A stretch of DNA of 64,000 bases from Chloroflexota bacterium. Its GTDB lineage: Bacteria; Chloroflexota; UBA11872. Where the stretch lies: NCBI GenBank assembly GCA_022821905.1, contig JAJECS010000006.1, positions 62,001 through 126,000 of the forward strand, given 5' to 3'. Within the stretch, counting starts at the first letter, position 1; each line of letters begins with the position of its first letter. The notes below the pieces were generated by a model. It was not told the DNA's origin. It saw nothing but the letters and a program-made list of their open reading frames with translations, and did not search any database. Shown here in pieces: positions 48,003 through 64,000 of this stretch. The position numbers and the translations under genes were made by a program.

Positions 48003-48416
48003 TCAGGGATTGTCCGGCCCTCGCCAGAGCCGCCAGCCCGTGGTGGCGAGCACCAGGGGGATCAGCACCGCGATGATCTGCCAGATCACCTCATGGTGCG
48101 CGCTGACGACTTCGCCGGGCGCCAATATCAGCAGGCGGATCCAGTTGTGGAAGTACCAGATGGCCAGCGCGGCGTTCGCGTAGACCAGCGTGATCGCGCC
48201 CAGCCGGGTCAGGCCCGGCGTCTCGCCGCCGGACAGCGAGCGCAGGCGCGCCAGGTTCGCCCCGAAGGCGACGAGAATGCCCACCCCTGAGATGACGTTC
48301 ATCACGCTCCACACGCGCCCCGGATTTTCGTAGCACGCGCTGAACAGGTATTGCGCCAGGTACAGCCCCACGTACCCCAGCATCAGGCCACCGACCACTC
48401 GCGAAACCACCGCCAT
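48003..48416 (-). CDS. Small four-helix membrane protein
   Basis: 137 residues with four hydrophobic segments (VGGLMLGYVGLYLAQYLF, VMNVISGVGILVAFGANL, LGAITLVYANAALAIWYF, IIAVLIPLVLATTGWRLW). It shares size, topology and the WSVMN motif with the protein at 25689-26123. No catalytic motif; function unknown. It stands alone on the minus strand. Confidence 0.65.
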   Translation of the reverse strand: MAVVSRVVGGLMLGYVGLYLAQYLFSACYENPGRVWSVMNVISGVGILVAFGANLARLRSLSGGETPGLTRLGAITLVYANAALAIWYFHNWIRLLILAPGEVVSAHHEVIWQIIAVLIPLVLATTGWRLWRGPDNP

Positions 48417-48529
48417 GAAGCACCCGCGCTTTCCGTGCCGCCGCCGGAGGCATCTGCCCGCCGTAATGGCGGTTGCTCACGATAGCGCAGCGTTCACGCC
48501 GAGGGGATGGGGTGAGCCGGCAGTCGCGA

Positions 48530-50062
48530 CTAGGCGATCTCGCCCAGTACCTTCACCCGCACACGACGCGAGTTTCCGGGCAGATAGGCCAGCGGCAGGT
48601 CCTCGACTTCGACGATTTCCAATGTCATGGGATCGGCGCCCGCCGTGATGGCGTCCCTCCGGGCGCCGGCGGTCGCCGCTGCGATGGCCTCGTCGCGCGG
48701 CACGTCGCGATAGACGCGGTCGGACTCGCCGCTGACCTGGGCCATCGCGGCGCCCACGGCGTTGGCAACCGTGGCATGCGGGACGCGGATCGTGTCGCCC
48801 GCGCCGGCCAGGCCGTCCGGCACCAGGAACGCAGCGCCGCCCACCGCGATCACCGGCCGGGGCGCCGCGTCGGGCTTCATGCGATCGATGGCGTCCTCGA
48901 GCGTGGCGCGAATCATCGCCATCGCATCGTTGACCAACCCGTTCGGCAGGTCGGCCACGCGACGCGGATCGCCCAGGGACGTGACGCCTGCGGCAACCGC
49001 GACATCCGTGCCGGTGGTGACCTCGCCGCCGAAGACGCGGCCAAGCTCGGTCAGCCGAAAGCCCACGCTCGCCGGGCCGATCGCCGGCGGCGACGTCGTC
49101 ACCTTCGACCCGCCGCCGAGTGGCAGCGACAGCAGGTCCGGCATCTGGAATAGCGTGCGTACGCCGCCAATCTCGACCACGCGGTTGGCCTGGCGCGGGA
49201 GACCCTGTCGCAGATAACCGACGTCGGTCGTCGTCCCGCCCACGTCGATAACCAGCGCGTCGGGCACGCCCGACAGAAATGCCGCGCCCCGCATGCTGTT
49301 TGTGGGTCCGCACGCCACGCCGAGGATTGGCAGCTCCGCCGCTCGCTCCATCCGCGCGATGGTCCCGTCGTTCTGGGTCAGATAAACCGGCGCCTCAATC
49401 CCGACCCTTTGCAGACCGTCGGCAAACGCGGCAGTCGTCGTGCGCGCCAGGTCGACCAGGCTGGCGTTGAGGATGGTCACGTTTTCGCGCGGCAGCAGGC
49501 CGATGCGTCCGAGGCGATGCGACAGCGTGACGCTGGCCTCGGGACACGCTTCGCGCACGATCTGGCCCGCCCGTTCTTCGAGCAGCGGGTCGAGCGGCGA
49601 GAAGACCGACGTGATCGCCACCGCTGGGATGCGGGCAGCGCGAATCTCGCGGGCCGCGGACTCCACCGCCGCCGCGTCGAACGGCACGATCGGGCGTCCG
49701 TCGTATTCGTGGCCGCCCCGGACCATGAAGTGGCGCGCGTGGACGGCTGCGGCAAGGTCGGATGGCCAGTCCGTGAATGGCTCGAGGAAGGCGGTTGCCG
49801 GCAGGCCGATGCGGATGGTGGCAACCGGCGTGAGTCTTCGCCGCTCCACGATGGCGTTGGTGAAATGCGTCGTCCCCAGCATGACCGCATCCACGTCTGC
49901 CGCGTCCGGTCCTGCCACCGCCAGAAGCGCGTCGAGCGCCGCCGTGATGCCGGAGCTCACGTCGGCGGTGGTCGCTTTCTTGACATAATGACGCACCGCG
50001 CGCTCATGCAGGAGCACGGCGTCGGTGCTGGTTCCGCCAACGTCGATGCCAATGACACTCAC
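48530..50062 (-). CDS. Hydantoinase/oxoprolinase-family protein (HyuA-like)
   Basis: 510 residues. The ASKHA-type phosphate motif is at the start: IGIDVGGTSTDAVLL. Further marks are MLGTTHFTNAIVERRRL, LTQNDGTI, GPTNSMRGAAFL and VIDVGGTTTDVGYL, all standard for the N-methylhydantoinase A/oxoprolinase family, which opens cyclic amides using ATP. At 510 residues it is shorter than full HyuA (about 690), a size seen in the group encoded next to DUF917 genes, as here. The cyclic substrate is unknown. Confidence 0.87.
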   Translation of the reverse strand: MSVIGIDVGGTSTDAVLLHERAVRHYVKKATTADVSSGITAALDALLAVAGPDAADVDAVMLGTTHFTNAIVERRRLTPVATIRIGLPATAFLEPFTDWPSDLAAAVHARHFMVRGGHEYDGRPIVPFDAAAVESAAREIRAARIPAVAITSVFSPLDPLLEERAGQIVREACPEASVTLSHRLGRIGLLPRENVTILNASLVDLARTTTAAFADGLQRVGIEAPVYLTQNDGTIARMERAAELPILGVACGPTNSMRGAAFLSGVPDALVIDVGGTTTDVGYLRQGLPRQANRVVEIGGVRTLFQMPDLLSLPLGGGSKVTTSPPAIGPASVGFRLTELGRVFGGEVTTGTDVAVAAGVTSLGDPRRVADLPNGLVNDAMAMIRATLEDAIDRMKPDAAPRPVIAVGGAAFLVPDGLAGAGDTIRVPHATVANAVGAAMAQVSGESDRVYRDVPRDEAIAAATAGARRDAITAGADPMTLEIVEVEDLPLAYLPGNSRRVRVKVLGEIA

Positions 50063-50066
50063 CGGA

Positions 50067-51188
50067 TCACCGCGTGAAGAGCGGATGGAAGTCGAGGTCG
50101 TGGCCGAACGCGCGCGGTCCCGTCAGCTCCAGCCCGCGCTCACTGAGGAGCATCTCGGGTGCCGGCAGCGCAACCACCGCCACCCGTTGCCCGTAGCGGA
50201 CCACTTCCGTGCCGATGGCCTCGCCGGAATCCTGATCGAGTAGGCAGATCAGGTCCGGCGTGGTAGCGCACGGTTCGTCGTCGCGCCATGCGACCGTGAA
50301 CTCGTTTTGGAACGCAATGCGCATGGTGGCGCCGGCATCGGCGTCGAGGCCCGTGATGTCCAGGCGCCCGCGCAGATAGCCGCCGGTGGTCCGGCGCTCC
50401 ACGTCCGTGACCTTGCCGCGCAGCAGCTCGACGCCGATCTCCTGTTGCAGCAACGCGGCCACCGGATCGCGGTGCTCGGCCTGGGCACGCCTGACCGTGT
50501 GCCCGATGCGAAGCGCCTTGGTGACCGTGCGCAGATGCGAGCCGGTCTTCACCTCGCGTCCCGTCCGCGGCGGGTTGCAGGTCGCGGCAACGGCGCCCAA
50601 CTCGGTGCAGGCGCGGCGACGAAGGCGCTCGAGCCACTTCCAGTCCGCCGCCTCCGAGATGATTACGGTGTTGGGGCGGATGTCGGCCATCACCAGCGGA
50701 TAGCAGGTGAAGTTCTTGACGGCGAAGCTCGTCATCTGCGCCTCGGGGAAGGCCCGGCCCATGGCGTCGGCGTCCACGAGCGGCAGTCCCAGCATGGCCC
50801 CCGCCATCAGCGGCTGAAACGCATTGCCGCCGCCGATCTCCCATGGCATCACGGCGGAGAACCGGATGCCGGCGTAGACCTCCATCTCACGGATCGCCCG
50901 GGTCACCGTCGCCGGATCGGTCAGCCGCTCCTCCGCCGGCAGCGGTGACCCCATCTGATTGACCGCGGCGACATACGCGTCGTCGGGCAGGTCCACTGGG
51001 TCGATGACCTCGACCACGCGACCTTGGGCATAGAGCTTCTTGAGGCAGAGGTAGCCGTAGTAGGGGTCGCCGCCGCCTCCGGTGCCGAGAATCCAGGCGC
51101 CAACGCGCAGGTCCTCGATGTCGGCCTCGGTCAGCGTCGTGCGCGCCACGCCGGTGAGGTCGTAGGGGGATTGGCCGTCGCTCACCAT
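50067..51188 (-). CDS. DUF917-family protein
   Basis: 373 residues from ATG 51188; the longer frame crosses the divergent promoter region and is rejected. AWILGTGGGGDPYYG at about residue 32 and the following VIDPVDLPDDAYVAAVNQMG, MPWEIGGGNAFQPLMAG and FPEAQMTSFAV match the DUF917 family, regularly encoded beside HyuA-like hydantoinases. It ends four bases before the hydantoinase gene starts, so the two probably form one enzyme or pathway. Confidence 0.85.
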   Translation of the reverse strand: MVSDGQSPYDLTGVARTTLTEADIEDLRVGAWILGTGGGGDPYYGYLCLKKLYAQGRVVEVIDPVDLPDDAYVAAVNQMGSPLPAEERLTDPATVTRAIREMEVYAGIRFSAVMPWEIGGGNAFQPLMAGAMLGLPLVDADAMGRAFPEAQMTSFAVKNFTCYPLVMADIRPNTVIISEAADWKWLERLRRRACTELGAVAATCNPPRTGREVKTGSHLRTVTKALRIGHTVRRAQAEHRDPVAALLQQEIGVELLRGKVTDVERRTTGGYLRGRLDITGLDADAGATMRIAFQNEFTVAWRDDEPCATTPDLICLLDQDSGEAIGTEVVRYGQRVAVVALPAPEMLLSERGLELTGPRAFGHDLDFHPLFTR

Positions 51189-51429
51189 AGGCCGGATCGT
51201 ACCTGGGGATGCTGTGGATAACTCCTCGCGACGGCGCGCTCCGTACTCTCCGTGGAGGCGTTGCCGATCGGTCCCGCCGGGAGTGTCGGTCGCCGACTCC
51301 AATCCCAGCCTTGCCCCTTCAAGGGCGACGGTGTTCTGGTCTGCGGATTGCTCGACGACGGGGATGCAGCCTGGGCCTCGACACCCTGCCAAATGCTTGC
51401 ACTGGTGACCCCTCGCGGCGTGGGCCATA

Positions 51430-51447
51430 CTCACGCATCAGCGTGAG
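51430..51447. promoter_or_regulatory. Operator-like inverted repeat upstream of phyH copy 3
   Basis: CTCACGC-ATCA-GCGTGAG is a perfect 7+7 inverted repeat centred 37 bases before the ATG of the PhyH gene and in the gap shared with the divergent DUF917 operon. Its size and symmetry suit a dimeric repressor site. No known regulator is matched, so the role is inferred. Confidence 0.45.
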
Positions 51448-51475
51448 GGCATCACCCACACAAGGACCAGATCCA

Positions 51476-52555
51476 ATGACGGCGACCGCCCCAACCGTCC
51501 GGCAAGCTGCCCGCCTCACCGAGAGCCAGATCGCCGAGTTCAAGCGCACCGGCTATATCGTGCTCCCGGGCGTGATCGACCCCGATCTCTGCCGCCAGGC
51601 CCGCGATCAAATGTGGGAGACGGTGGCCGAGAGCCGGCCCAGCATGAAGCGCGACGACCCCGCCACCTGGGTCCCATTCACCGACGACGAGAAGGCCAGC
51701 TACGAGCGGCCCGGCATTGGCGGCGACCCCTACTTTTCCGGCGGTGGCCACCGGATGATCATTCGCAACGGTGCGGAGGACCTGCTGCTCGACATCGGCG
51801 CCCGCGCCGTGTGGGACATCGCCGAGCAGTTGCTGGGCAAGGGCGAGGTCGTGTTCCCCGGCGGCGTCGATGAGGACGGCTGCACCACCGGCCCCTGCTT
51901 CATGACCAAGAAGGTCGCCGACGGCATGGAAGTCCACATGGGCCCCAAGCACGAAGAGTGGACCGGCAAGGGCTCGGGCGAGACGGAGTACCTGCGGCTG
52001 CCCAGCACCGGCCCGCACTGGATGACCGCGCAGGGCACCCGCGGCATGTACTGCACCCTGCCCAACAGCCCGGTCTCGACCCCGCCCGACTGGCGCGGCG
52101 CCCACGCGGGCGAAGGTCTCTACCACACGCGCCAACTGCTGCAAACCGCGGTCTACTTCGACGACGTGCCCCCGGGTGCGGGCGGGCTGATGCTCTTTCC
52201 GGGCAGCCACCACCGCATCTGGGACTACTGGGAGACCACGAACCACGGAGCGACAGCCATCGTGAATGGCGAGGACTCGCCCAAGTTCATTGGCTACACC
52301 GATCCGCCGATCGGCGCCATCAAGGCCGACACCGAGCCCGTGATGACCGCCGGACCCGCCGGGTCAGTGGTCCTCTGGCACACAATCATGCTGCACCTGG
52401 CCGGCTGGAATGAACACCCCGACATCATCCGCCAGGCCACGCTCTACGGCTTCCACAAGAAGCCCGACACCTGGCCCGACGAGCGACTCGCCGCCGGCCC
52501 CAAGGGCAGCATCTGGACCGACTGGTCCGACGAGGTCAAGGCGGTGTCCGTCTAG
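51476..52555 (+). CDS. PhyH-family (phytanoyl-CoA dioxygenase-like) protein, copy 3
   Basis: 359 residues from ATG 51476 (frame open from 51209 but the upstream part is not family-like). It aligns along its length with the two copies at 17613 and 19118: FKRTGYIVLPGVIDPDLCRQ, SMKRDDPATWVPFTDDEK, GGLMLFPGSHHRIWDYW, LWHTIMLHLAGWNEHPD. The expected HxD is again replaced, here by GAHAGEGLY. It is clearly an older paralogue, with roughly half the residues shared. Divergent from the hydantoinase/DUF917 operon, which may supply or use its substrate. Confidence 0.85.
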   Translation: MTATAPTVRQAARLTESQIAEFKRTGYIVLPGVIDPDLCRQARDQMWETVAESRPSMKRDDPATWVPFTDDEKASYERPGIGGDPYFSGGGHRMIIRNGAEDLLLDIGARAVWDIAEQLLGKGEVVFPGGVDEDGCTTGPCFMTKKVADGMEVHMGPKHEEWTGKGSGETEYLRLPSTGPHWMTAQGTRGMYCTLPNSPVSTPPDWRGAHAGEGLYHTRQLLQTAVYFDDVPPGAGGLMLFPGSHHRIWDYWETTNHGATAIVNGEDSPKFIGYTDPPIGAIKADTEPVMTAGPAGSVVLWHTIMLHLAGWNEHPDIIRQATLYGFHKKPDTWPDERLAAGPKGSIWTDWSDEVKAVSV

Positions 52556-52639
52556 CCGAAAAGGATGCAATGGGTCGCCGTGAGTCCGTCAATCTCGCGG
52601 CAGGAGTCCCTTGCGCAGCCTCTCCAGCGGAGATTGGAG

Positions 52640-52710
52640 ACCGGGTCCGGTCCCCTCTCCCTCTGGGAGAGGGGTAGAGCCTGCCCCGTGCTCGACACGG
52701 GGGTGAGGGG
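52640..52710. repeat. CCTCTCCC-type repeat with nested family-A palindrome (copy 3)
   Basis: The common spacer unit CCCTCTCCCTCTGGGAGAGG is interrupted by the family-A element (52679-52703, here CCCCGTGCTCGACACGGGG) and then resumes as TGAGGGG. The same nested arrangement occurs at 58918-58980. The stem bases change in a compensating way (GTA/TAC to GTG/CAC), so the hairpin is kept. Confidence 0.75.
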
Positions 52711-52749
52711 CATCCGAGGCTCGGACGGCGTAGCTGACGCGGAGAACGC

Positions 52750-53466
52750 GTGAGACTAAGGCGGAGCGGAACCATCGGAATCAGCGGCATCCACGACATG
52801 GGCGGCGTGCCGGGCTACGGGCGCGTCGAGCCTGAATCCGACGAGCCGATCTTCCATAGCGAATGGGAGGGTCGAATCTTCGGCCTGGTGACCTCGGTGA
52901 AGGGCGGCCTCTCGCGCCCGAGGTTGGAGAGCCTCGACCCGGATGAATACCTGTCCGGCTACTACCAGCGGTGGATGCTCGCCTTCGAGCGCGGGCTCAT
53001 TGAGCGGGGCGTGCTGGGCGCCGAGGAGCTGGACGCAAAGACCGAGTACTTTCGCGAAGATCCCGACGCAAGACCGACGCGAAGGATCGAGCCGGCACTC
53101 ACCGAGCGCGTTCGTGAGGGCATGTATCGGCAGCGGGACGTTCGCAGGCAGCCGGTCCGAGCGCCGGCATTCGACGCCGGAGACCCAGTGCGAGCCCGCG
53201 GAATCCGGCACGGCGGACACACCCGCTCGCCGAAATACGTGCAGGGCAAGCGCGGAGTCATTCACGCCGTCTACGCCGCCTACGATCTTCCCGACGACAA
53301 CCCCCACGATGAGGTTGCGCCGGCGCAGCACCTCTACAGCGTCAGGTTCGAGGGGCACGAGCTTTGGGGCGGGTCGGCGGAGGCGGGCACGGCCGTCCAT
53401 ATCGACATGTGGGAGAGCTACCTGGAGCCGCTTGGCTCGGGCGTCGCAGAGCGGACTGACGCATGA
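52750..53466 (+). CDS. nthB: Nitrile hydratase beta subunit
   Basis: 238 residues (GTG start tentative; the family normally begins at GIHDMGG, which here is residues 13-19). [18 protein letters not shown], then [32 protein letters not shown] and, near the C-terminus, [16 protein letters not shown] with [19 protein letters not shown] are beta-subunit hallmarks. Beta and alpha together hydrate nitriles to amides in the cytoplasm. Beta precedes alpha and overlaps it by four bases, the order known for cobalt-type enzymes. Confidence 0.92.
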
Positions 53467-54092
53467 GCGGCGACCACGACCATGGCCACGATCACTTCCC
53501 CGAGCCGGAGCCATACGAGGCGCTCCGCACGCGGGCACTCGAGTCGCTCCTGGTCGAAAAGGGCCTGGTGACTACCGACGCCATCGACGAGATCGTGCGG
53601 ACGTATGAGCAGGACATCGGACCCATGAACGGCGCCAAAGTGGTGGCGAGGGCGTGGGTCGATTCCGACTACAAGCGGCGTCTGCTCGAGAACGGCACCG
53701 AGGCTATCGCCGAGCTTGGCTTTGGCGGCGCCGAGGGCGCCGAGATCGTGGTTTTGGAGAGCACGCCCCAGGTGCACAACGTCATCGTGTGCACGCTCTG
53801 CTCGTGCTACCCGTGGCCGGTGCTCGGCCTGCCACCCGCCTGGTACAAAGACGCGGCCTACCGATCGCGCGTGGTCCGTGAGCCTCGCGCCGTGCTGCGC
53901 GAGTTTGGCCTTACCGTCGACGAGTCGAAGGAGATCCGGATATGGGACAGCACCGCGTCGCTGCGCTACATGGTGCTGCCAGAGCGCCCCGCCGGCACCG
54001 GTGACGTGCCGGAGCAGAAGCTCGCGGAGCTCGTGACCCGTGACTCGATGATCGGGGTGGGCCTGGCGCGGTCGAGGTCGGAGATCGCCTAG
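53463..54092 (+). CDS. nthA: Nitrile hydratase alpha subunit, cobalt type
   Basis: 209 residues. The metal claw [11 protein letters not shown] (Cys110, Cys113, Ser114, Cys115) has Thr after the first Cys, the mark of cobalt rather than iron enzymes. The two later cysteines would be oxidised. [12 protein letters not shown] and [12 protein letters not shown] precede it, as usual. The His/Asp-rich N-terminus (GDHDHGHDH) could bind metal, perhaps aiding cobalt loading. It starts by ATGA overlap with nthB and is followed by a broken accessory gene. Confidence 0.94.
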
Positions 54093-54147
54093 TGCCTGAT
54101 CCCAACGAGCCCAATTGAGCCGACGGCCCGACCGCGGCATATCGGCC

Positions 54148-54450
54148 ATGACCGGCGACGAGGCGCTGCCCAGGACGAACGGCGAGTTGGTCTTCAACGA
54201 GCCCTGAGAGGGCCGGGCCTTCGGACTGGCCGCCGCCTTGACCGAGCGCGGCGTCTCCAACTGGACCGACTTTCGCAACCAGCTCATCGAGGTCACCGCA
54301 GCCCACGATGGGCACGCCGAACCGGACGGCTACTACCAGCGATGGCTCCGGGCCCTGGAACGGCTGGCTCTGGAGCACGGGCTCGTCACATCAGCGGAGT
54401 TGGACGCGAAGACCGAGGCGCTTGCGTCTGACCGCCACGACGGCCACTGA
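54148..54450 (+). pseudogene. Nitrile hydratase accessory protein with in-frame TGA
   Basis: From ATG 54148 the frame reads MTGDEALPRTNGELVFNEP, then TGA at 54205-54207, then EGRAFGLAAALTERG, WTDFRNQLIEVTAAH, YYQRWLRALERLALEHGL and SAELDAKTEAL to the stop at 54450. The family (the beta-subunit-like chaperone that delivers cobalt to alpha) has EPWE at this point, so a single TGG-to-TGA change explains the break. The rest of the frame is intact over 100 codons, so the lesion is recent or a sequencing error. Restart at a GTG or TTG downstream would lose the conserved N-terminus. Confidence 0.82.
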
Positions 54451-54530
54451 TGCACGGCTAGGGAGTCAAGCCGAAACTCGACTAAGCCGCTTGGCTATCA
54501 TCGCGCCCACGCCGTCGCGCGGAGTCCTGC

Positions 54531-54650
54531 ATGCCAACCAACTCGGTCCGCAGCAGCCCCTACGGCGACGTGCAGCTTGGCGCGTTTCGGGAGGTGCTGA
54601 CCTATCCGGGCCGCTATCTCAACGACCACTGCCTGATTCGGCATGAGGGA
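54531..54650 (+). pseudogene. Stranded 5' end of the GH43-like gene
   Basis: ATG 54531 begins MPTNSVRSSPYGDVQLGAF, continuing about 40 codons to CLIRHEG. This matches the first residues of the gene at 57849 with only three differences over 37 residues (about 94 of 111 bases by eye, mostly silent changes). It then breaks into unrelated low-GC DNA. It marks the original start of that gene before the island at 54651-57848 was inserted. Confidence 0.82.
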
Positions 54651-54783
54651 CTTCGCCCGAACACAATGAACAGCAGGCACACTCAGTCGGAGTATTCGCG
54701 ACCGTATCGTCGTCGGCGGCAGAGGGTTGATACGTGCTCCTGCGTATACTATCCGCGGGCAAACTGCCGGTAGGGTGGACTGC

Positions 54784-55413
54784 ATGCAGGCCAGTAGCCA
54801 GGAATCGGTGGACGAAAGAGCTCCAAGCCCGCTAGTCCATCACAATCCATTCACAGTGCCCGGAGATGTGCCCGGATCCGCAGAGGGGCCGTTCGGGACG
54901 ATTCTGGCAGACCCACCTTGGAGGTTCAATAATCGAACTGGACGGGTTGCCCCGGAGTATCGACGGCTCCCGCGGTACACGTCTCTATCAATCTCCGAAA
55001 TAACGTCGCTCCCGGTTTCAGATCTTGCTCTCGAGAGAAGCCATCTGTACTTGTGGGTTCCGAACGCGCTGATCCAAGAGGGTCTTGCTGTGATGAAGCA
55101 GTGGGGATTCGAGTACAAGACGAATATAGTCTGGTATAAGGTTCGCAAAGATGGCGGCCCAGATGGGCGCGGAGTAGGATTCTACTTTAGAAATGTTACC
55201 GAGCTCGTCCTTTTTGGCGTTCGCGGTTCTATTCGTACGTTTCAGCCCGGACGAAGGCAGGTGAATCTCCTCCCGTCTCGAAAGCGTGAGCACTCACGCA
55301 AGCCTGACGAGCTTTACGACGTAATTGAGCAATGTAGCCCTGGACCATACCTAGAGCTGTTCGCGCGCCATGCGCGTTCTGGATGGTCGCAGTGGGGAGA
55401 TGAACTGAAATGA
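54784..55413 (+). CDS. MT-A70-family adenine methyltransferase
   Basis: 209 residues from ATG 54784. The catalytic motif DPPW is at residues 43-46 (TILADPPWRFNN). It is followed by the family pattern YTSLSISEITSLPVSDL, HLYLWVPNALIQEGLAVMKQ, WGFEYKTNIVWYKV, GFYFRNVTELVLFGVRG and a C-terminal SPGPYLELFARHARSGWSQWGDE, which is the SAM-binding strand order of MT-A70 enzymes. Bacterial members methylate the N6 of adenine in DNA and are frequent in phages and islands. A frame to 54727 exists but adds no family sequence. The next gene follows after 57 bases on the same strand, so the pair is probably an operon. Confidence 0.88.
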   Translation: MQASSQESVDERAPSPLVHHNPFTVPGDVPGSAEGPFGTILADPPWRFNNRTGRVAPEYRRLPRYTSLSISEITSLPVSDLALERSHLYLWVPNALIQEGLAVMKQWGFEYKTNIVWYKVRKDGGPDGRGVGFYFRNVTELVLFGVRGSIRTFQPGRRQVNLLPSRKREHSRKPDELYDVIEQCSPGPYLELFARHARSGWSQWGDELK

Positions 55414-55470
55414 GAGTCGCGAGCTCAGTTGTCGTGTGCTGGCACGCCAGTTCACACGTGAGATAGGTGT

Positions 55471-57756
55471 ATGTACGTCGATAGAGACGATTCCTCGGGG
55501 TTGATTTCAGGTCCCGACATCCGCCGAGAACTCAGGCAGCGTCGAAGGGATTCTCTTGAGAAGACAGCCTTGCCGTCCCAGGAGCAAAATCTTGCTGATG
55601 ATGGCTGGGCGGTCATCCGTCGAAATAAGAAGACTGTTCGAGTTCGAAAGCCGAAGCCTGAGGACCAAAGGCTCGAGGACGAGGTGTGGACGCTCTTTGC
55701 ACAGATGGGCTTCCACCATTTGAGTTCAGGTCGGCACTTTGGTGTGCCACTTAGCGGTTCCGATCCGGATGTGCCGCCGAAACAGATAGATGTCTTGGCG
55801 GTTGATGACGAAACTGCCCTGGTCGTCGAGTGCAAAACGTCGAGAAATCTCAGATCTAGGTCACTTCAGAAAGATCTAAACGAGACTCGTGCGCTGCAAG
55901 ACTCCATCAGACAGACAATCCACAACTGGTTTCCGGAACGGCCTCGGGTGTGCTTTGTCTATGCAACCAGGAATATCAAGTGGAGCAGACAGGATAGGGC
56001 GCGGGCAAAAGACCACCAGATTAGTATAGTCCAGGAAAGGCAATTCAGCTATTTCCGGCGCCTTGTTGACATCGTTGGGCCAGCCGCGAGACACCAATTG
56101 CAGGCGGAGCTTCTGCAAGGCTCACCGGTGCAGGGGCTGAGAGGGACAGTCCCTGCTCTTCGAGGGAGATTTGGATCAACGACGTTCTATCAGTTCGCCA
56201 TTGAACCAGATCGATTGCTCAAGTTAGCCTACGTCAGTCACCGCGCACGAATTGATGCGAGTGCAGTCGGGACCTATCAGCGTCTCCTGCGCAAGCGTCG
56301 ATTGCGTGATATAGCGGATCACATTAATCAAACCGGTGGGATATTCCCTACCAATGTCGTCGTGAATTTTAGGCATACCCGGCGTCTCAGGTTTGATATG
56401 GCAGGCCCATCGTCCGATGATCCGACCGCCGTAGGAGTGCTGCATTTACCAAATACGTACAGATGCGCATGGATCATTGATGGACAACATCGTCTATACG
56501 GATTTGCGCTGAGCGAATGGGATCGCAAGGGGCGCGTCCCGGTCTTGGCGTTTGAGGGTCTCAATCCGCTTGAAGAAGTCAAGATGTTTGTCGATATCAA
56601 CAGCAAGCAAGTCAAGGTTCCCCGAAGTCTTCTGGTAGAGCTAGAGCCCGAGCTGGCAGAGGTTGAAGGAACGCCGGACGCGCTATTGCGAAGTCTGCAT
56701 TCGCAAATTGCAATTGACCTTGCGGAAGATCAGGAATCGCCCTTGTGGGACCGGGTCTCGACAGAATGGGATACGGATCGCAAGGTGCGCCCCGTCACGC
56801 TACCTCAGCTGGCGAATGCCATAGCTTGGAGCCAGCTTGTTGGCTCGCTGAGGGCTAGTGTATTCCATCCGGGCTACCTCTATCTTCGCGATCACCAGAC
56901 AACATTTGATCGAGCACGCGAGACCATCGGGATGTTTCTTCGGCTGTTTTCTGAAGGAGTGCCGTCAAAGTGGAACAGGGAGGACTCTCGCGGCGGTTTC
57001 CTATGCACGAACTTAGGAATCGCGGCGTCGCTGCGGCTATTCAATACGATACTCCATCACCTACGCGAGGACGATGAGGGTATTGACTACGTGAATCTGT
57101 CGCCCGAGGCAGTCATCGGGTGCATAGTTCCTTTTGTTGAGCCGGTGATTGCTTGGTTCAAGACGGCGACGGATAGTGATATGCAACGATTTCGTGGCTA
57201 CTACGGGAGCGGGGCGGTACCGGCATACTCATTTCGCTTGATGGAGATTGTCCATGAGCAATTTCGGGAGTTTTCGCCGGCAGGACTTCAGCGATATATT
57301 CAGGAGCACAATGCGGAGACTCTAAACCATGCGCGAGAACTGGTTGCGGATATTGAGGATAGTGTCAGGCTGATTTCCTTTTCTGTATTGAAAAGCAGGC
57401 ATGGCGCTGACCGGAGTGTCTGGTGGAGGACTGGCGTTCCCCAAGCGGTCCGTGGGAATGCAGCGCAAAAGGCAGAGACAAGCGAAGAGGGTGGCGATGC
57501 ACATCAATTCCTCGAACTGCTTGACTATAAGAAGATTGCTGAGATGCCCAAGAATTGGCGAGCATTTGAACATCTTTGGGCGTTCGATCCATCGGCGCGT
57601 TCGAAGAGCGATCGATTAGCGTGGTTTGGACGACTTAACGGTATTCGGAACCGGGTTTCGCACTCTGGGCGCCGGAGCGTGACGAGCGAGGAAGTGTCGT
57701 TTCTTGAAGAGCTATGGGAGTATATTGAGAACCGTCGCACTGAAGTGCTGCAATGA
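55471..57756 (+). CDS. Three-part protein: PD-(D/E)xK-like nuclease, DGQHR domain, RNxxxH C-terminus
   Basis: 761 residues. (1) Residues about 65-200 look like a restriction-endonuclease fold: IDVLAVDDETALVVECKTS gives Asp107, Glu120 and Lys122 in D-x12-E-x-K spacing. (2) Residues about 235-460 hold the DGQHR motif (337-341, in WIIDGQHRLYGFA), the hallmark of DndB-like and related ParB-fold proteins, with MFVDINSKQVKVPRSLL after it. (3) Residues about 680-755 form a helical end with GIRNRVSHSG; Arg726 and His731 fit the RxxxxH pattern of HEPN ribonucleases. Cotranscribed with the MT-A70 gene. A DNA-modification-linked defence role is inferred; part 3 is the least certain. Confidence 0.8.
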   Translation: MYVDRDDSSGLISGPDIRRELRQRRRDSLEKTALPSQEQNLADDGWAVIRRNKKTVRVRKPKPEDQRLEDEVWTLFAQMGFHHLSSGRHFGVPLSGSDPDVPPKQIDVLAVDDETALVVECKTSRNLRSRSLQKDLNETRALQDSIRQTIHNWFPERPRVCFVYATRNIKWSRQDRARAKDHQISIVQERQFSYFRRLVDIVGPAARHQLQAELLQGSPVQGLRGTVPALRGRFGSTTFYQFAIEPDRLLKLAYVSHRARIDASAVGTYQRLLRKRRLRDIADHINQTGGIFPTNVVVNFRHTRRLRFDMAGPSSDDPTAVGVLHLPNTYRCAWIIDGQHRLYGFALSEWDRKGRVPVLAFEGLNPLEEVKMFVDINSKQVKVPRSLLVELEPELAEVEGTPDALLRSLHSQIAIDLAEDQESPLWDRVSTEWDTDRKVRPVTLPQLANAIAWSQLVGSLRASVFHPGYLYLRDHQTTFDRARETIGMFLRLFSEGVPSKWNREDSRGGFLCTNLGIAASLRLFNTILHHLREDDEGIDYVNLSPEAVIGCIVPFVEPVIAWFKTATDSDMQRFRGYYGSGAVPAYSFRLMEIVHEQFREFSPAGLQRYIQEHNAETLNHARELVADIEDSVRLISFSVLKSRHGADRSVWWRTGVPQAVRGNAAQKAETSEEGGDAHQFLELLDYKKIAEMPKNWRAFEHLWAFDPSARSKSDRLAWFGRLNGIRNRVSHSGRRSVTSEEVSFLEELWEYIENRRTEVLQ

Positions 57757-57848
57757 TGAGTTTGGATGCCTCGATTGGCAACGGGTCCTCTCGAGTGCAG
57801 TTCTTTAGGCGCCAGAATACGACGCCTGTCTAGTTCGACTTAAGAATC

Positions 57849-58907
57849 ATGCTTGCTAGCTCGGTCCGCCCCAGCCCGTACGGCGATGTCCAACTCGGTG
57901 CGTTTCGGGAAGTGCTCACCTATCCGGGCCAATACCTCAACGACCACTGCCTGATCCGGCACGAGGGCCTGTGGCACTTCTTCGGCATCATCGGCGACGT
58001 GACCGGTCCCGGCGAGATGCACGGCGTCGAGCACTCGCTGGCCCACGCCACCTCCCCGGACTTGATGCAGTGGACCGTGCATCCCCCGGCGCTCACCGCC
58101 ACCGGCGTGTGGCCGGAAGAGGTGACCTGCTTCGCGCCCTACGTCATCGAGCACGAGGGCCGCTTCTACATGCTGTATTGCGTCACGGATGTGCATCGCA
58201 CGCAGCGCATCTGCCTCGCCACGTCGACCGATCTCTTCACCTGGGAGCGCTTTCCCGGCAATCCCGTGATCGTGCCCTCCGTGTCCTGGGCCAAGTGGCC
58301 GGGATTCGGTCTGCCGAAGCCGGATGAGGTGGAGCGCATGCACCGCGACGCGGGCGACGACTTCCTATCCGTCGCCCGTCGGCTCGGCGGCTCCTACGGC
58401 GGCTGCCGCGATCCGCACATCATCCGGCTCGACGACGGGACGTTCGTGGCCTACTGGGTCGCGCGCGTGCAGGAGAGGTTCGGCCGCAACCTAGTCTGCG
58501 TGGCCGCGTCCATGTCGCACGATCTGCTGCACTGGCAGGAGGTCGGGCCGGTGTTCACCATGAGGGCCTGGTCCTTCGACGAGGAGCCCACGCTCGAGGT
58601 CGAGTCGCCATGCGTGGTACCCAAGGACGGAAAGTTCTGGCTGTTCTTCAAGCACGGCTGGTGGACGCATTTCGTGGCTTCCGACTCGCCCTACGACTTC
58701 CACGGCTACGAGCCGCAGCGGCTGGGCTTCTGTCACGCCTCCGAGGTGTTCCATTGGGAAGGCCGGTGGTGGATCACCCACTGCTCCGCCGATCCCGAGG
58801 ATTTCCGCTACCGTGAGTCCAACCGCACCCGGGGCCTGTTCATGGGCCATCTGGACTGGCCCGACGGCGCCCAGCCGCGGGTAGTCGCGCCCGGCGAGCA
58901 GCCGTGA
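57849..58907 (+). CDS. GH43-like five-bladed beta-propeller glycosidase-family protein
   Basis: 352 residues. Blade-like repeats of aromatic and charged strands: LIRHEGLWHFFGIIGDV, HATSPDLMQWTVHPPAL, CFAPYVIEHEGRFYMLY, ATSTDLFTWERFPGNPVI, GGCRDPHIIRLDDGTFVAYW, SMSHDLLHWQEVGPVF, ESPCVVPKDGKFWLFF. The DPHIIR and ESPCVV segments lie where GH43/GH32-type enzymes carry catalytic acids. No signal peptide, so it is probably cytoplasmic. Its 5' end is duplicated at 54531 on the far side of the low-GC island. It is followed by a sialidase-like gene, which suggests work on complex glycans. Confidence 0.75.
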   Translation: MLASSVRPSPYGDVQLGAFREVLTYPGQYLNDHCLIRHEGLWHFFGIIGDVTGPGEMHGVEHSLAHATSPDLMQWTVHPPALTATGVWPEEVTCFAPYVIEHEGRFYMLYCVTDVHRTQRICLATSTDLFTWERFPGNPVIVPSVSWAKWPGFGLPKPDEVERMHRDAGDDFLSVARRLGGSYGGCRDPHIIRLDDGTFVAYWVARVQERFGRNLVCVAASMSHDLLHWQEVGPVFTMRAWSFDEEPTLEVESPCVVPKDGKFWLFFKHGWWTHFVASDSPYDFHGYEPQRLGFCHASEVFHWEGRWWITHCSADPEDFRYRESNRTRGLFMGHLDWPDGAQPRVVAPGEQP

Positions 58908-58917
58908 AGGGAACTGT

Positions 58918-58980
58918 CCGGTCCCGCCTGCCTCGGAGAGGGTTAGAGCCTGCCCCATACTTGATACGGGGGTGAGGGTG
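58918..58980. repeat. CCTC-GGAGAGGG repeat with nested family-A palindrome (copy 4)
   Basis: The spacer unit ending GGAGAGGGTTAG is interrupted by the family-A element (58948-58972, here CCCCATACTTGATACGGGG) and resumes as TGAGGGTG. The arrangement matches 52640-52710. Confidence 0.7.
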
Positions 58981-59024
58981 ACAACGAGCGACGCTCAAGC
59001 CGAACATATGCAAAGGAGACGAAT

Positions 59025-60233
59025 TTGACCCACGACCAAGGAGCACTGAGGCTCGACGCGACCACTGACACCGGCAACCTCGGCGGCGCGCCCTGGCCGT
59101 CGCCGGACGACTTGCTTGCGATGCAGGCGTCGGACTACGTGCTGCACGCCGCCGGTGGACGGCTACGTCGCGTCCCGGTGGCCAAGTCGATCCTGCCGCA
59201 CGATCCCGCCGGCCACCCGCAGATGATCCACGCCGCGCGAGCCCCGGACGGCGCCATCTTCGTCAACCAGGGCTCGCTGATGTGTCGCAGCGATGACGAG
59301 GGCCGCACCTGGACCTCGTATCCGCGCGGCGACGCCGCCGGACGAGAGCCGTCGGCCGTTCTGGGCCTCGACATGTATCCGCACCGGGGACCGATTGCCG
59401 TCCTCGACGACGGAACTTTGGTGCACGTCGGCTCGAACGACGGTATTCGCACGGATCCCATCGAGATCATGGGCTCGACCGACCAGGGCCGCAGCTGGAG
59501 GGCGCATTCCACGCTGACGCTGCCGGCTCGTTACGAGGAGCGCTACTACCACTCCCTGCGGCGCATCGAAGGCGGGACCCTGCTGCTGCTGTTGTGCTGC
59601 CGCGACCGGCTGGTGTGGGAACCGCCCGCCAGCGGCGTCATGCATCTGCTGGCGTTCAGGTCGGATGACGGCGGACACACCTGGTCCGAACCGGCGCTCG
59701 TGTGCAACTGGGGCACCGAGGGCGCGGTCGCTGAGCTGGGCGGCGGCCGGCTGCTGGCGGTGGTGCGGTACCAGCGGCCCCGCATGCCCGACGAACTTGA
59801 GCCCCAGGCCGCGCGCGGCAATCTGGCCTGGAAGCACGTATTCCTGGCCGATTCGCCCGACGGCGGTCGCACCTGGGGCAACCTGCGGCAGCTCACTACC
59901 GTGTTCGGACAGTGCTTCGGCGCGCCGGCGGTGTCAGGCGACGGGACCATCGCCGTCATCCACGACACCCGCTATGGTCCGGGTCCGCCCAGCGGTCGGG
60001 TCATGCTCAGCCGAGACGGCGGCGAGACCTGGGCCGACGAGGCGGTCTATCTCTACTACGGCTCAGGCGTCAGCGGTTTCAGCGCCAGCGTGACGCTGGA
60101 CGACGGCGACGTGCTCTCGCTCGTCGGCACCTGCGACCACGAGCCCGCGCGCACCGTGTGGGACGCCGCGATCGGGCACACCCAGGTCACCGCCATCCGG
60201 TGGAACCCTGGAGGATTGGTTTCAGAAGCCTAG
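59025..60233 (+). CDS. Sialidase-like (BNR/Asp-box) six-bladed propeller protein
   Basis: 402 residues from TTG 59025, set by AGGAG eight bases upstream. Five Asp-boxes are visible: SDDEGRTW, STDQGRSW, SDDGGHTW, SPDGGRTW, SRDGGETW, the S-x-D-x-G-x-T-W turn of sialidase propellers. Arginines that would bind a sialic-acid carboxylate may be in HAARAPDG and VVRYQRP, but the full arginine triad cannot be fixed by eye. No signal peptide. Exo-alpha-sialidase or a related glycosidase; it is paired with the GH43-like gene upstream. Confidence 0.8.
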   Translation: MTHDQGALRLDATTDTGNLGGAPWPSPDDLLAMQASDYVLHAAGGRLRRVPVAKSILPHDPAGHPQMIHAARAPDGAIFVNQGSLMCRSDDEGRTWTSYPRGDAAGREPSAVLGLDMYPHRGPIAVLDDGTLVHVGSNDGIRTDPIEIMGSTDQGRSWRAHSTLTLPARYEERYYHSLRRIEGGTLLLLLCCRDRLVWEPPASGVMHLLAFRSDDGGHTWSEPALVCNWGTEGAVAELGGGRLLAVVRYQRPRMPDELEPQAARGNLAWKHVFLADSPDGGRTWGNLRQLTTVFGQCFGAPAVSGDGTIAVIHDTRYGPGPPSGRVMLSRDGGETWADEAVYLYYGSGVSGFSASVTLDDGDVLSLVGTCDHEPARTVWDAAIGHTQVTAIRWNPGGLVSEA

Positions 60234-60237
60234 GAGA

Positions 60238-60355
60238 GCCGTTCGAGGTGAGCCCTTCGGCAGGCTCAGGACAGGCTCTGTCGAACCATGAACGGCGCCC
60301 TTCGACGTTGCTCAGCGCCTGCCCCGTACTTGTTACGGGGGCGAACGGGTGAGCC
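60238..60355. repeat. Family-C repeat, interrupted, and family-A palindrome (copy 5)
   Basis: A family-C unit (GTTCGAGGTGAGCC...TGTCGAACCATGAACG) is interrupted by extra sequence CTTCGGCAGGCTCAGGACAG. The family-A hairpin CCCCGTACTTGTTACGGGG follows (60317-60341), inside a GAACGGGTGAGCC context. Noncoding spacer between convergent genes. Confidence 0.65.
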
Positions 60356-60390
60356 GCCGGGACCGATACTTGGGGCTAGCTCCGGTGCCC

Positions 60391-61524
60391 TCACATCCGG
60401 TCGAGCTTCCACTGGAAGAAGTCCAGCGGGAATAAGTCCGGCGCGAAGTCGGGGAATCGCTCCGGACCGAACAAGAGCTTCACCAGCTCGCAGTCGCTCA
60501 CGTCGAGCGTGCGGTCGCCGCGGCTCAGCCGCCACCCGTCGTCGGACGGCGTCGCCTCGACCTCCGTCAAATCGAGCGCACCCAGCAGCGACTCGAGATT
60601 GATGACCTTGATCATGTAGTGATGCGTCTGGCCAAACGGGATCCCGGTCGCCAGCAGCAGGCCGGCGAGGCCCTCGTTCGATTCGGGCGCGATGACCTCC
60701 AGCGTCACCACCGTGCTTTCGCCGGGCGGACGGTCGGTGGTGCTGGCGCGGGGATCGTCGATATCGCGCAGCAGGCGCCGCAGCAGCGCCACGGTTGCCG
60801 CCACGTCGCCGCCGTACTCGAGGACCTCCCGCTGGCGCTCGGCCACATACGCCACCGGCGCGCCGCCCTGCAGCGCGACGAGCAGCCGGTCGGCCCGCGA
60901 CTGCGCCACCAGCGTGAAGTAGTGCTCGTCGCGGTCGGCGCCCATCGGCTCGCGCGCGTGCATCGCCGTCAGCGCCGCCGCGTGAGTGCGCCAGTCCTCG
61001 GTGATCTCAAGGTCGGGGCTCGGCGGCAGCAGCGTGATATTCGCCCGGTCCAGCGTGTGACTGCGCTCGCGCATCCCCATCTCCCAGCCAAAGCGGCGGT
61101 AGTAGTTCTGGCTCACGGTGCCCAGCATGGCGATGTGATGGCCGCTGGCCCGCATGATCCGGTGCGCGTCGTGAAGCACGGCGGTTCCCAGCCCGCGCTT
61201 GCGGTGGTCCGGGTGCGTCACGAAGCCGTTGATGCCGCCAAGCTCAATGCGGCCGCGCGGCGTGCGCACCGTGGTTGGGGCGATCGCCACCGCGCTCACG
61301 ACCAGTCCGTCGTGCGTGATGACGCGAATGTTGTCGAGGTTCCCTGGGTAGTAGACGTGCGGCCAGTCCAAGCCCATGGACGGCATGCGAGCCGGCTCCC
61401 CGGCGCGTGAGTTCAGGGTCCGCAGCGCCAGGTTCTGCAGGTCGAGCATGGCCCCAAACTCATGCGGGTCGCAGGCCCGCGGCCCGTCGTAGCCGTCGGG
61501 CACTGGGGGTGGACGCTCAGCCAA
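60391..61524 (-). CDS. GNAT-family acetyltransferase, Eis-like
   Basis: 377 residues, a length matching the two-GNAT-plus-sterol-carrier-like architecture of Eis proteins. The acetyl-CoA site is clear: INGFVTHPDHRKRGLGTAVL, followed by IAMLGTVSQNYYRRFGWEMG. The C-terminal domain ends FPDFAPDLFPLDFFQW. Eis-like enzymes acetylate amines such as aminoglycosides or polyamines. The start overlaps the DUF72 stop by eight bases. Confidence 0.83.
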   Translation of the reverse strand: MAERPPPVPDGYDGPRACDPHEFGAMLDLQNLALRTLNSRAGEPARMPSMGLDWPHVYYPGNLDNIRVITHDGLVVSAVAIAPTTVRTPRGRIELGGINGFVTHPDHRKRGLGTAVLHDAHRIMRASGHHIAMLGTVSQNYYRRFGWEMGMRERSHTLDRANITLLPPSPDLEITEDWRTHAAALTAMHAREPMGADRDEHYFTLVAQSRADRLLVALQGGAPVAYVAERQREVLEYGGDVAATVALLRRLLRDIDDPRASTTDRPPGESTVVTLEVIAPESNEGLAGLLLATGIPFGQTHHYMIKVINLESLLGALDLTEVEATPSDDGWRLSRGDRTLDVSDCELVKLLFGPERFPDFAPDLFPLDFFQWKLDRM

Positions 61525-62308
61525 CGGAAATTCCCCGGCGTTCGAGCTCGGCGGTCAGCCGCAGCGCGGCGTCGGCCGTGTCGACGTCTTTCTTGCCGTA
61601 GCACACGGCCATGGTCATTCGGCCCGCCTCGCTCGCCTGCTGGACGATAGTGGCACGTTCCCGGATCTGGGCGTCGCTGTATCGCAAACGTCCATCGTTG
61701 GCGCCGCTCGACGCAACCGCCGGGCCGCGAAATCGGAAGTACGCCAGATCACCGGCATCCTTCGGCCACGCTGCCTCATCTGACGCCGGCGGGTCGTGGC
61801 GCACGTGCGCAACGTTGTGGGTGCGCATGGCCTCGTCGATCCGCGCGCGTAGCTCGGCGTCCGGCGTGTCGGGCAGCTCCACCGCCAGCGGCAACTCGCC
61901 AAATCCCTCACGCAGCACTCCCAGCGAGCGATCCACGTCAATCTCGGCGCTCAGCTTTCCGGGGAACTGCAGCAGGTAGGCAACGAACTTGCCGGCGTCA
62001 ACCAGCGGCTGCGCCATGGCCGCGTGCCGCGCGAATCCCTGCGGCTCGGCCTTGTCGGGATGCCGCAGCCATGACGAGATGAAGCGATGCGCCTTGAGGC
62101 TCAGCATGAATCCGTCCGGCGTCTGGTCCGCCCACCCGGCCACCGTCTCGGGCTGTTGCATGCGAAAAAACGTGGCGTTGACCTCGACGCCCGAAAGACG
62201 CGCGGCGTAGGCCGCCAGCTTCTCGCTCTGTTTGGTTCCACGCGAGTAGAAGCCGCGCAGGTCGTTCCAATTCGCCGTGCCCACGATCACGCGGCCACGT
62301 GGGCTCAT
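61517..62308 (-). CDS. DUF72-family protein (YecE-like)
   Basis: 263 residues. VIVGTANWNDLRGFYSRG at the start, LSGVEVNATFFRMQQPETVAGW, FMLSLKAHRFISSWLRH, YLLQFPGKLSAE and the C-terminal YFRFRGP are the conserved elements of DUF72 TIM-barrel proteins, whose reaction is still unknown. Part of a four-gene minus-strand operon (hypothetical, PhyH, DUF72, GNAT) with short gaps or overlaps. Confidence 0.9.
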   Translation of the reverse strand: MSPRGRVIVGTANWNDLRGFYSRGTKQSEKLAAYAARLSGVEVNATFFRMQQPETVAGWADQTPDGFMLSLKAHRFISSWLRHPDKAEPQGFARHAAMAQPLVDAGKFVAYLLQFPGKLSAEIDVDRSLGVLREGFGELPLAVELPDTPDAELRARIDEAMRTHNVAHVRHDPPASDEAAWPKDAGDLAYFRFRGPAVASSGANDGRLRYSDAQIRERATIVQQASEAGRMTMAVCYGKKDVDTADAALRLTAELERRGISVG

Positions 62309-62332
62309 GGCGCGGCGCCCGTCGGTGTCGGC

Positions 62333-63214
62333 TCAGACCGCCTGCTGGTGGACGCGCGGATCGGTGGGGTCGCCCGGATAGCCGTAGGGTTGGTAGTCCA
62401 CCGGCCCGACCTTCGGCCAACCCTGGCCGCCCAGGGCTTGGAAGTCGTCCAGGCGTCCGCACAGCCAGAAATACATGCGCGCCACGGCCAGATAGGAGTT
62501 TCGCGGCGCAGGCGGCGCGTCGGGTCCGGGGCCGTAGACGGCCGTCGCCGGATCGAAGTCCGGCTCGCGCACCCAGTCGCGCTGCGGCGCCGAGGTGCGC
62601 CAGTAGTTGTACTTGAGCAGATTGCGAATGCCCGATGCCGTCGACTCCGTGCGCCGGTGCCACACGGAGTAAGCCGAGATGAAGATCGAGCCCGCGGGGG
62701 CCGCACTCGACACCGTGCCGCGATACATGCCGTAGAGGCCCGAGCTGCCCTGCCCGAACGGCCAGTACAGGTGCGAGCCGGGCAGAAACGCCGTGGCGCC
62801 CATCTCCACCGTCGTGTCCTGCGGGTAGTAGTAGACCTGCAAGTAGTTCAGCTCGTGGTTCGAGAGCGAGCCGCCGTCGCGGTGCCAGCCGTAGGCGCGG
62901 GCCGGCATGTGGACGCGGTGGCTCGACATAATCCTCGGCAGCGCGAAGTTCCGTCCGAGTAGGCAGCGCACCGCACCGGCCGCCACCGGATTGCACATCA
63001 CGCCGTCGATGAACCAATCCTCGTCGAGGATTTCGTTGGGCTCGTGGTTGGCGAAGTCGCCCGGTTCGATGTGCGGCGCGTGCTCGTCCATGAACTCCAC
63101 GACACGCTGGTTGACGTCGTCAGGCACGACGCCCTCGAGCGGCAGATAGCCCGTCTTGCAGAAGTCCAGGACCTGGGAGTCGGTGAGCGTCGGTTCGCAG
63201 TCGTGGGTACGCAT
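62333..63214 (-). CDS. PhyH-family Fe(II)/2-oxoglutarate dioxygenase-like protein
   Basis: 293 residues. FCKTGYLPLEGVVPDDVNQR is the family start. The metal motif is canonical: HRD in ARAYGWHRDGGSL, with the distal His in SAYSVWHRRTES and the 2-oxoglutarate-binding Arg in GIRNLLKYNYW. It differs strongly from the three PhyH paralogues elsewhere in the window, which lack this HxD. Probably hydroxylates a small molecule; substrate unknown. It begins seven bases after the small hypothetical gene. Confidence 0.87.
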   Translation of the reverse strand: MRTHDCEPTLTDSQVLDFCKTGYLPLEGVVPDDVNQRVVEFMDEHAPHIEPGDFANHEPNEILDEDWFIDGVMCNPVAAGAVRCLLGRNFALPRIMSSHRVHMPARAYGWHRDGGSLSNHELNYLQVYYYPQDTTVEMGATAFLPGSHLYWPFGQGSSGLYGMYRGTVSSAAPAGSIFISAYSVWHRRTESTASGIRNLLKYNYWRTSAPQRDWVREPDFDPATAVYGPGPDAPPAPRNSYLAVARMYFWLCGRLDDFQALGGQGWPKVGPVDYQPYGYPGDPTDPRVHQQAV

Positions 63215-63221
63215 GGCGGGC

Positions 63222-63587
63222 TTACCTCACCTTCTCGAGGATGAACTCGACGCCCGGCCCGTGGAGCCTGGTTTCGTCCAGGATCACGGCCAGCTCCGGG
63301 AATTTGATGATGCGCCAGCCGTCATTCAGGGCGTCCATGACGGTGTCGTAGGGCATGTCGTCGGGGTCCGGCGGACCCTCGTCGATCTCACCGTCCCGCG
63401 CAATGAACATGCCGATCACGCCTGAGTTGACCGACGCCGTGCCGGCCTGGAGGTACAGCAACTCCTGGCGCGTGTCCTCGCCGTCTGCCAGCGACTGCAA
63501 GGTGTCTCGCAGGTCTGACTCGGTCAAGGTGCCGGTGCGAAAACGCTGGATGCACGACTCGATGGCTGCCTGCCGTGGCGAACTCAT
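63222..63587 (-). CDS. Hypothetical protein, first gene of the PhyH operon
   Basis: 121 residues. No recognised family. An acidic, helical N-terminal half (IESCIQRFRTGTLTESDLRD then TLQSLADGEDTRQELL) and a C-terminal half with strands (GWRIIKFPELAVILDETRLH, EFILEKV). It lies seven bases upstream of the dioxygenase gene and would be cotranscribed, so a partner or regulator role is possible. Normal GC-rich codon use supports it as a real gene. Confidence 0.65.
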   Translation of the reverse strand: MSSPRQAAIESCIQRFRTGTLTESDLRDTLQSLADGEDTRQELLYLQAGTASVNSGVIGMFIARDGEIDEGPPDPDDMPYDTVMDALNDGWRIIKFPELAVILDETRLHGPGVEFILEKVR

Positions 63588-64000
63588 GTGGGCGCGCCTC
63601 CGCTCGATAGGCCGGGTCGATTCTGGTGCGGCAGCCTATCACGAGGGTGCCTCGCGCCTTCCGGCCGATTTCCCATCCCACGCACGAAGCTTCACGTCAG
63701 CCACAAGTCGTTCCACGCACCCAGGACGGGCAACCACAAGGGGTGCCCAACGAGGAGGGGTCCTTCGGCTTAGGGGCGGCCCGTGTGGTCGCAAGGTAAA
63801 GGGTCGGGTCTTTCGGTGTAGGGGCGGCCCTTGTGGCCGCCCTCGACCGAGTTGCCCAACGGTCCCTTGAATGATGGGGTTGACACGAGCGCGTCTAACC
63901 CAAGCTGAGACTGGGGCTCAGGCAGTCTCCCAGCTCCGCGTAGACTGCCCATCACAGCCAACGCACCGGAGGCGCGCCCCTATGCCCGGCCACCGCGCCG
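63588..64000. repeat. Terminal intergenic region with family-F repeats
   Basis: No gene supported. Two copies of a unit of the form TCGG-TAGGGGCGGCCC-TGTGG (63765-63792 and 63815-63842) lie in tandem about 50 bases apart. Related units with GGCCCGCCCCTACG occur at 37348 and 41340. The far end shows nothing recognisable before the window stops. Confidence 0.5.

Follow-up and report, generated by a model that had tools for sequence, protein, structure and literature searches.

An island-borne MT-A70 methylase and a multidomain DGQHR protein as a candidate compact restriction-modification module

A 64,000-nucleotide stretch of a Chloroflexota bacterium genome (GenBank assembly GCA_022821905.1, contig JAJECS010000006.1, positions 62,001 to 126,000 of the forward strand; hereafter the window, in whose own positions all coordinates are given) carries an island at about 54651–57848 with two plus-strand genes, an MT-A70 family methylase followed by a protein of 761 residues, here called the effector. 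We consider it rather probable that the pair constitutes a compact restriction-modification (R-M) module with a built-in ribonuclease (RNase), similar to Type II R-M, for which methylation, cutting and defence are predicted activities. Modelled nuclease and ParB folds, a probable HEPN domain, residue conservation, recurrent pairing and partner exchange were computed directly. An earlier sequence-only reading had proposed a compact self/non-self discrimination system; overall, that proposal is partly supported. Its description of a low-GC (guanine plus cytosine), two-gene island is borne out by the open reading frame (ORF) listing, in which no other notable gene was found within the island, and by the GC fraction of 500-base bins: 0.53–0.56 across bins 55000–57999, 0.61 in the 54500 bin, and 0.64–0.72 in the remaining bins of 48000–63999.

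The effector gene (55471..57756, plus strand, as are all its parts below; 761 aa) combines a nuclease fold, a DGQHR ParB/sulfiredoxin (Srx) domain and a probable HEPN domain. The motifs picked out before any database search, namely DPPW at methylase residues 43–46 and D107/E120/K122, DGQHR (337–341) and RNRVSH (726–731) in the effector, all lie at those positions. The N-terminal third is modelled as a PD-(D/E)xK nuclease fold (residues 64–196, 55660..56058) with a D...E-x-K set (codons of D107 at 55789–55791, E120 at 55828–55830 and K122 at 55834–55836), and DNA cleavage is predicted. The DGQHR/ParB-sulfiredoxin domain (residues 229–390, 56155..56640; DGQHR at 56479–56493) passes the DGQHR family test (TIGR03187, 147.2 bits against a cut-off of 58.85, E-value 7.8e-43, motif at 337–341), and the effector also matches Pfam DndB (PF14072, 42.9 bits, 4.2e-11). 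In the structure model a helical middle region (residues 391–600, 56641..57270), to which no family was assigned, leads to the C-terminal third, a probable Swt1-type HEPN domain (residues 601–761, 57271..57753; RNRVSH at 57646–57663). The R-x4-6-H motif of HEPN domains is present, with R726 and H731 kept in 83/83 aligned members; this 83-row alignment left out L003–L006 and the short or broken frames L008, L022, L051, L055 and L074. Among the close effector pairs compared, segments 10–63 and 471–600 are among the less conserved. No REase_II model is among the effector's PADLOC matches at E ≤1, a result under which unlisted families stay possible.

The methylase gene (54784..55413, plus strand, ATG start, 209 aa) belongs to the MT-A70 family, with a PF05063 match of 103.6 bits against a cut-off of 23.9 (1.4e-29) and the DPPW motif given above, and matches PADLOC MTase_II at 9.9e-89. 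Its ATG frame is nested in a TTG frame starting at 54727, and a TTG start is possible.

Single-protein scans of GTDB genome contigs and viral contigs confirmed no relative of the effector, and a scan with a five-sequence alignment returned 157 among GTDB genomes plus 8 among viral contigs. The survey set comprised the best 80 of the 157 GTDB relatives, the 8 from viral contigs, 2 phylum genomes and 2 plasmids, and yielded 91 full-length relatives (88 distinct proteins) and one partial match, L094, left out of that count. Judging from record titles, the hosts include Pseudomonadota, Acidobacteria, Deltaproteobacteria, Bacillota, Planctomycetota, Verrucomicrobiota and several archaea. The family is rare in the window's phylum (3/301 sampled genomes, the window's counted). 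Seven full-length relatives come from viral-contig records and five plasmid records cover at least 80% of the effector; no phage record with at least 80% coverage was found.

The methylase–effector pairing is not unique to this genome. An adenine-methylase gene adjoins the effector in 66 of the 91 full-length relatives, 60 times of D12/Dam type and six times of MT-A70 type, the minority partner, and 22 more have a radical-SAM gene within 6.5 kb. Locus genes were called by a greedy ORF script, so small genes may be missed. The D12 partners comprise 57 clustered proteins, two fragments at contig ends (L030 and L062) and one divergent protein (L060). In the fetched flanking stretches, clustered methylases lie close to the effector, 64 of them at <800 bp in 63 loci and one farther, alongside 701 other ORFs of at least 150 aa; the commonest gap is a 4-nt overlap (12/64). 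DPP[YFW] occurs in 58/58 D12 cluster members and DPPW in 7/7 MT-A70 cluster members. The MT-A70 genes at L048 and L055 are convergent with the effector rather than co-directional. Radical-SAM loci (L005, L006, L015, L081 and 18 others) hold 21 clustered proteins plus the divergent L014, and at L031, at a contig end, the ATPase of the radical-SAM type stands alone. All 21 clustered radical-SAM members carry C-x3-C-x2-C, in fixed columns in 16/16 aligned; a GHKL-type ATPase cluster accompanies 18 of these 21 loci, an extra DGQHR-cluster gene 11, and a PIN_8 gene is sometimes present. Two loci have additional methylases: at L087 an unrelated second MT-A70 gene lies at a distance of 4.7 kb, and at L093 D12 methylase genes flank the effector on both sides.

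The effector's modification partner has been repeatedly exchanged. On an effector tree of 87 sequences (L094 and the five short-frame rows L008, L022, L051, L055 and L074 left out), eight partner-type changes are required, against a shuffled mean of 25.4, and 0/200 shuffles came that low; starred branches force six changes for the D12 label and four for MT-A70. A single MT-A70 clade is rejected (approximately unbiased test, p-AU 3.6e-9), as is a single radical-SAM clade (p-AU 4.9e-45). The nuclease lysine tends to follow the partner, being K in 53/61 methylase-type rows and T in 16/20 radical-SAM-type rows (one of the 20, L031, labelled by its ATPase gene alone); this link is not independent evidence, because 19 of the 22 rows with a radical-SAM partner fall into a single clade. 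More tentatively, the effector might be a general chassis that reads protective DNA marks and has been re-paired with unrelated writers: Dam-type or MT-A70 methylases, which would place N6-methyladenine in a GATC core, and radical-SAM enzymes, usually with the GHKL-type ATPase and often with a second DGQHR protein, which would place an unspecified mark matched by the K-to-T change in the nuclease.

Partner exchange also bears on the idea that the large protein is a DndB-like regulator controlling the modification enzyme, a role ascribed to DndB in phosphorothioation, with accessory or inactive nuclease and HEPN parts. The DGQHR domain is common to DndB and DpdB, and passages of two sources describe a DndB-like protein that binds ATP and GTP (PMC12704722) and DndB as an ATP-dependent repressor (PMC10853773). 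A regulator would nevertheless have no need of two conserved catalytic-type domains, one protein would have unrelated enzymes to regulate, and in 11 of the 21 clustered radical-SAM loci the extra DGQHR-cluster gene could regulate instead. We regard this explanation as improbable.

The MT-A70 partners of the four acquisitions are 56–69% identical, and an unlinked MT-A70 protein from an island-less genome of the window's genus (G060) reaches only 36–39%; judged by these identities, the partners are one subfamily. Relatives of at least 60% identity occur in 22 plasmid or phage records, and in nine of the 15 neighbourhoods read (L106, L108, L110, L112, L113, L237, L238, L240 and L241, with the same MT-A70 protein in L110 and L240 and in L112 and L238) a BglII/BstYI-family endonuclease adjoins the MT-A70 relative, which is 66–70% identical. 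The BglII family (PF09195) was confirmed in 5/5 endonucleases checked, and no BglII-type neighbour was found beside two distant MT-A70 control genes. All 54 of the D12 partners given match the Dam family (54 of the 58 cluster members, the copies L088, L090 and L091 and the second L093 gene left out), and the nearest PDB chain to the D12 partner profile is the DpnII methylase. BglII recognizes AGATCT, BstYI RGATCY, and the Dam and DpnII methylases GATC. Because MT-A70 relatives adjoin BglII-family enzymes and the D12 partners are Dam-family proteins, a shared mark is predicted: the partners' sequences suggest that both kinds write N6-methyladenine in a GATC core.

In the restriction-modification account that we prefer, the MT-A70 enzyme would methylate adenine at a short site in host DNA, for which the GATC core is predicted. 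The effector would sense unmarked DNA; the sensor would probably be its DGQHR ParB/sulfiredoxin domain, working as a DNA clamp or switch under nucleotide control, a role that fits the ATP and GTP binding described in passages on the DndB-like protein (PMC12704722). Judging from fold and residues, the N-terminal PD-(D/E)xK domain would cut the unmarked DNA, and the C-terminal HEPN RNase might be releasable as a second or suicidal layer. The opposite polarity, a modification-dependent (Type IV-like) enzyme whose target is methylated foreign DNA, draws on GmrS, a Type IV subunit that, in passages of PMC4619093, has a DGQQR relative of DGQHR. A Type IV enzyme aimed at the mark of the neighbouring methylase would turn on its own host, and therefore the adenine-methylase gene adjoining the effector in 66/91 loci counts against this alternative, which we think very improbable.

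Several observations weigh against the restriction-modification account or parts of it. Two loci, L020 and L083, have no partner gene within reach, and the radical-SAM protein is presumably, by inference, a DNA-modification enzyme of unspecified chemistry. Among the 15 MT-A70 neighbourhoods, four have an AAA ATPase pair (L105, L107, L109 and L239) and two have neither that pair nor a BglII-family gene (L104 and L111). Within the window, RGATCY falls below dinucleotide shuffles (47 against 68, standard deviation 6.8) and GATC does not (391 against 365). In 287–396 kb from each of six genus genomes neither site is depleted in island carriers relative to the others: observed/expected ratios are 0.82 and 0.84 for RGATCY and 0.95 and 0.96 for GATC in the two island genomes, compared with 0.79–0.83 and 0.93–0.97 in the four island-less ones. 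Genome avoidance lends a GATC-type target no support. No hypervariable target-recognition segment is evident in the effector pairs compared. Structure prediction of the effector's outer regions returned the nuclease fold that the sequence-only reading had anticipated, but left its HEPN fold at probable, the match being weak by Z with an unrelated BAR domain ranking second; and the nuclease motif has eroded among the aligned relatives, E120 being lost in 6/83 and K122 in 26/83. As a separate observation, TCATGA, one of 64 hexamers, has a somewhat smaller observed/expected ratio in the two genomes with the island than in the four without it, a difference that possibly reflects chance or kinship.

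Because E120 and K122 are eroded and R726 and H731 are invariant, the part that is essential to the effector function may be the HEPN domain and not the nuclease. The pair would then be an abortive-infection or addiction module, in which the HEPN RNase is triggered by infection or by loss of the methylase and the PD-(D/E)xK domain, often dead, binds or senses DNA. The threonine at the lysine position in 16/20 radical-SAM-type rows speaks for this explanation, as does carriage on viral-contig (7) and plasmid (5) records. Against it, the full D-E-x-K set is kept in 52/61 methylase-paired rows, which would be hard to explain if cutting did not count, and two unrelated kinds of methylase suggest that the signal is a DNA mark. 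We hold an abortive or addictive function to be unlikely.

The methylase–effector pair lies between two direct-repeat copies of 123 nt that are 83% identical. The left copy (54530..54652, plus strand) represents, out of place, the 5' end of a glycoside-hydrolase-43-like gene that lies downstream, and the right copy (57848..57970, plus strand) is the 5' end of that gene in its intact form (57849–58907); the ends first proposed for the island, 54651 and 57848, match the inner edges of the repeat. Among six genus genomes the methylase–effector pair is present in two, the window's and that of a second species, at the identical location, and no effector match was found at E 1e-10 in the other four. 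The downstream gene is present in 6/6, and the repeat is single-copy in the stretches fetched from each of the four island-less genomes, one of which (G060) has only the unlinked MT-A70 gene (41% identity). The second species (L003) retains a shorter left-repeat remnant, at about 607–642 of its locus. That the pair is a decayed mobile remnant without current function could be argued from its presence in only two genomes and its flanking by a duplicated gene end; yet in both species the frames are open and stop-free with motifs intact, the MT-A70 proteins being 86% and the effectors 67% identical, and we find such decay highly doubtful.

Some further features of the setting were recorded. The island, which has no integrase inside, brings with it a duplicate of the downstream gene's 5' end. 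Divergence between the window's repeat copies (83% identity) exceeds that of the left copy, or of the gene end on the right, from other species (about 87–93%, over unequal stretches), a pattern that looks as if one side of the island derived from another lineage. Elsewhere in the window's genome, locus L002 (G000:C31:151893-152309) is another frame in which DGQHR occurs, shorter than the effector's. Upstream of the island, nitrile hydratase subunit genes occupy 52750–54092, and the frame that follows them (54140–54450), with an in-frame stop near its start, we take by eye to resemble a nitrile hydratase accessory protein.

If the restriction-modification account is correct, the pair would represent a recurrent two-gene self/non-self system of bacteria and archaea with DNA restriction and RNA cleavage on one polypeptide. 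Its marking enzyme would be swappable, which raises the question of whether one effector reads one mark from different writers, and the radical-SAM branch would indicate DNA modification via radical chemistry. The DGQHR/ParB fold, familiar mainly from DndB and DpdB, would gain a place in a nuclease.

The sequence-only reading had called the module undescribed. No description of the module was found in the open-access papers searched, supplements excluded, and the nuclease–ParB–HEPN effector is not described there as an R-M effector. One relative, L005, is encoded on the Novosphingobium aromaticivorans plasmid pNL1; we take the tag prefix Saro_ to denote that species and, from the prefix alone, assume that a protein designated Saro_3948 is the L005 protein. 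A HEPN survey of 2013 lists Saro_3948 in a table as a Swt1-like HEPN-ParB fusion, 'mostly active', and also treats HEPN-restriction endonuclease fusions generally (passages of PMC3710099). Because L005 is an N. aromaticivorans plasmid protein, the HEPN-ParB fusion of the effector family was probably already noted, and to that extent the word undescribed has to be qualified. Saro_3948 shares the HEPN family and the ParB fusion; the passages on it name neither a nuclease fold nor pairing with a modification enzyme (PMC3710099).

Compared with DndB and DpdB, of phosphorothioate and 7-deazaguanine systems, the effector has the DGQHR/DndB domain at its centre in common and extra nuclease and HEPN domains. 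DpdB itself was rejected (NF041060, 83.3 bits against an equivalog cut-off of 300), and the effector also lies far under the DGQHR_dnd_1 cut-off. Dnd was rejected, with no above-cut-off match to DndC or DndD in the window's genome (93% complete); the sub-cut-off matches (DndD 66.8 bits against 245.85, DndC 21.3 against 290.4) are similar in control genomes. BREX was rejected as well, PglZ having no match at E 0.001 in the same genome. Passages on Type-1 BREX-related systems (DUF499/Hma) describe operons that combine an N6-methylase gene with that of a DNA-acting ATPase bearing a Swt1/Abi2-type HEPN domain (PMC12839542, PMC3710099), but their core is an AAA+ ATPase plus a helicase, and the two-gene island encodes neither. 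GmrSD, a Type IV system, joins a ParB/Srx-fold domain to a nuclease as the effector does; according to passages of PMC4619093, GmrD is a putative HNH nuclease and the target is modified DNA, whereas the effector has PD-(D/E)xK and HEPN domains with a methylase alongside. PD-Lambda-5, termed a compacted R-M plus abortive-infection system in passages of PMC9519451, was weighed too: PD-Lambda-5_A is not listed for the effector at E ≤1, and the L009 D12 protein matches PD-Lambda-5_B at 4.2e-10, well below its MTase_II match. The proposed distinctness stands for Dnd and BREX and is doubtful in principle for classical restriction, whose two-gene layout the island has: a methylase gene beside a nuclease gene, as in Type II R-M, is found in the window and in 66/91 relatives. 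The Type II systems with a BglII/BstYI endonuclease, whose pairs with MT-A70 are carried on plasmids and a phage, share with the island an MT-A70 of the same subfamily beside an endonuclease in a two-gene layout; their endonuclease is small, whereas here an unrelated 761-aa architecture with added ParB/Srx and HEPN domains takes its place.

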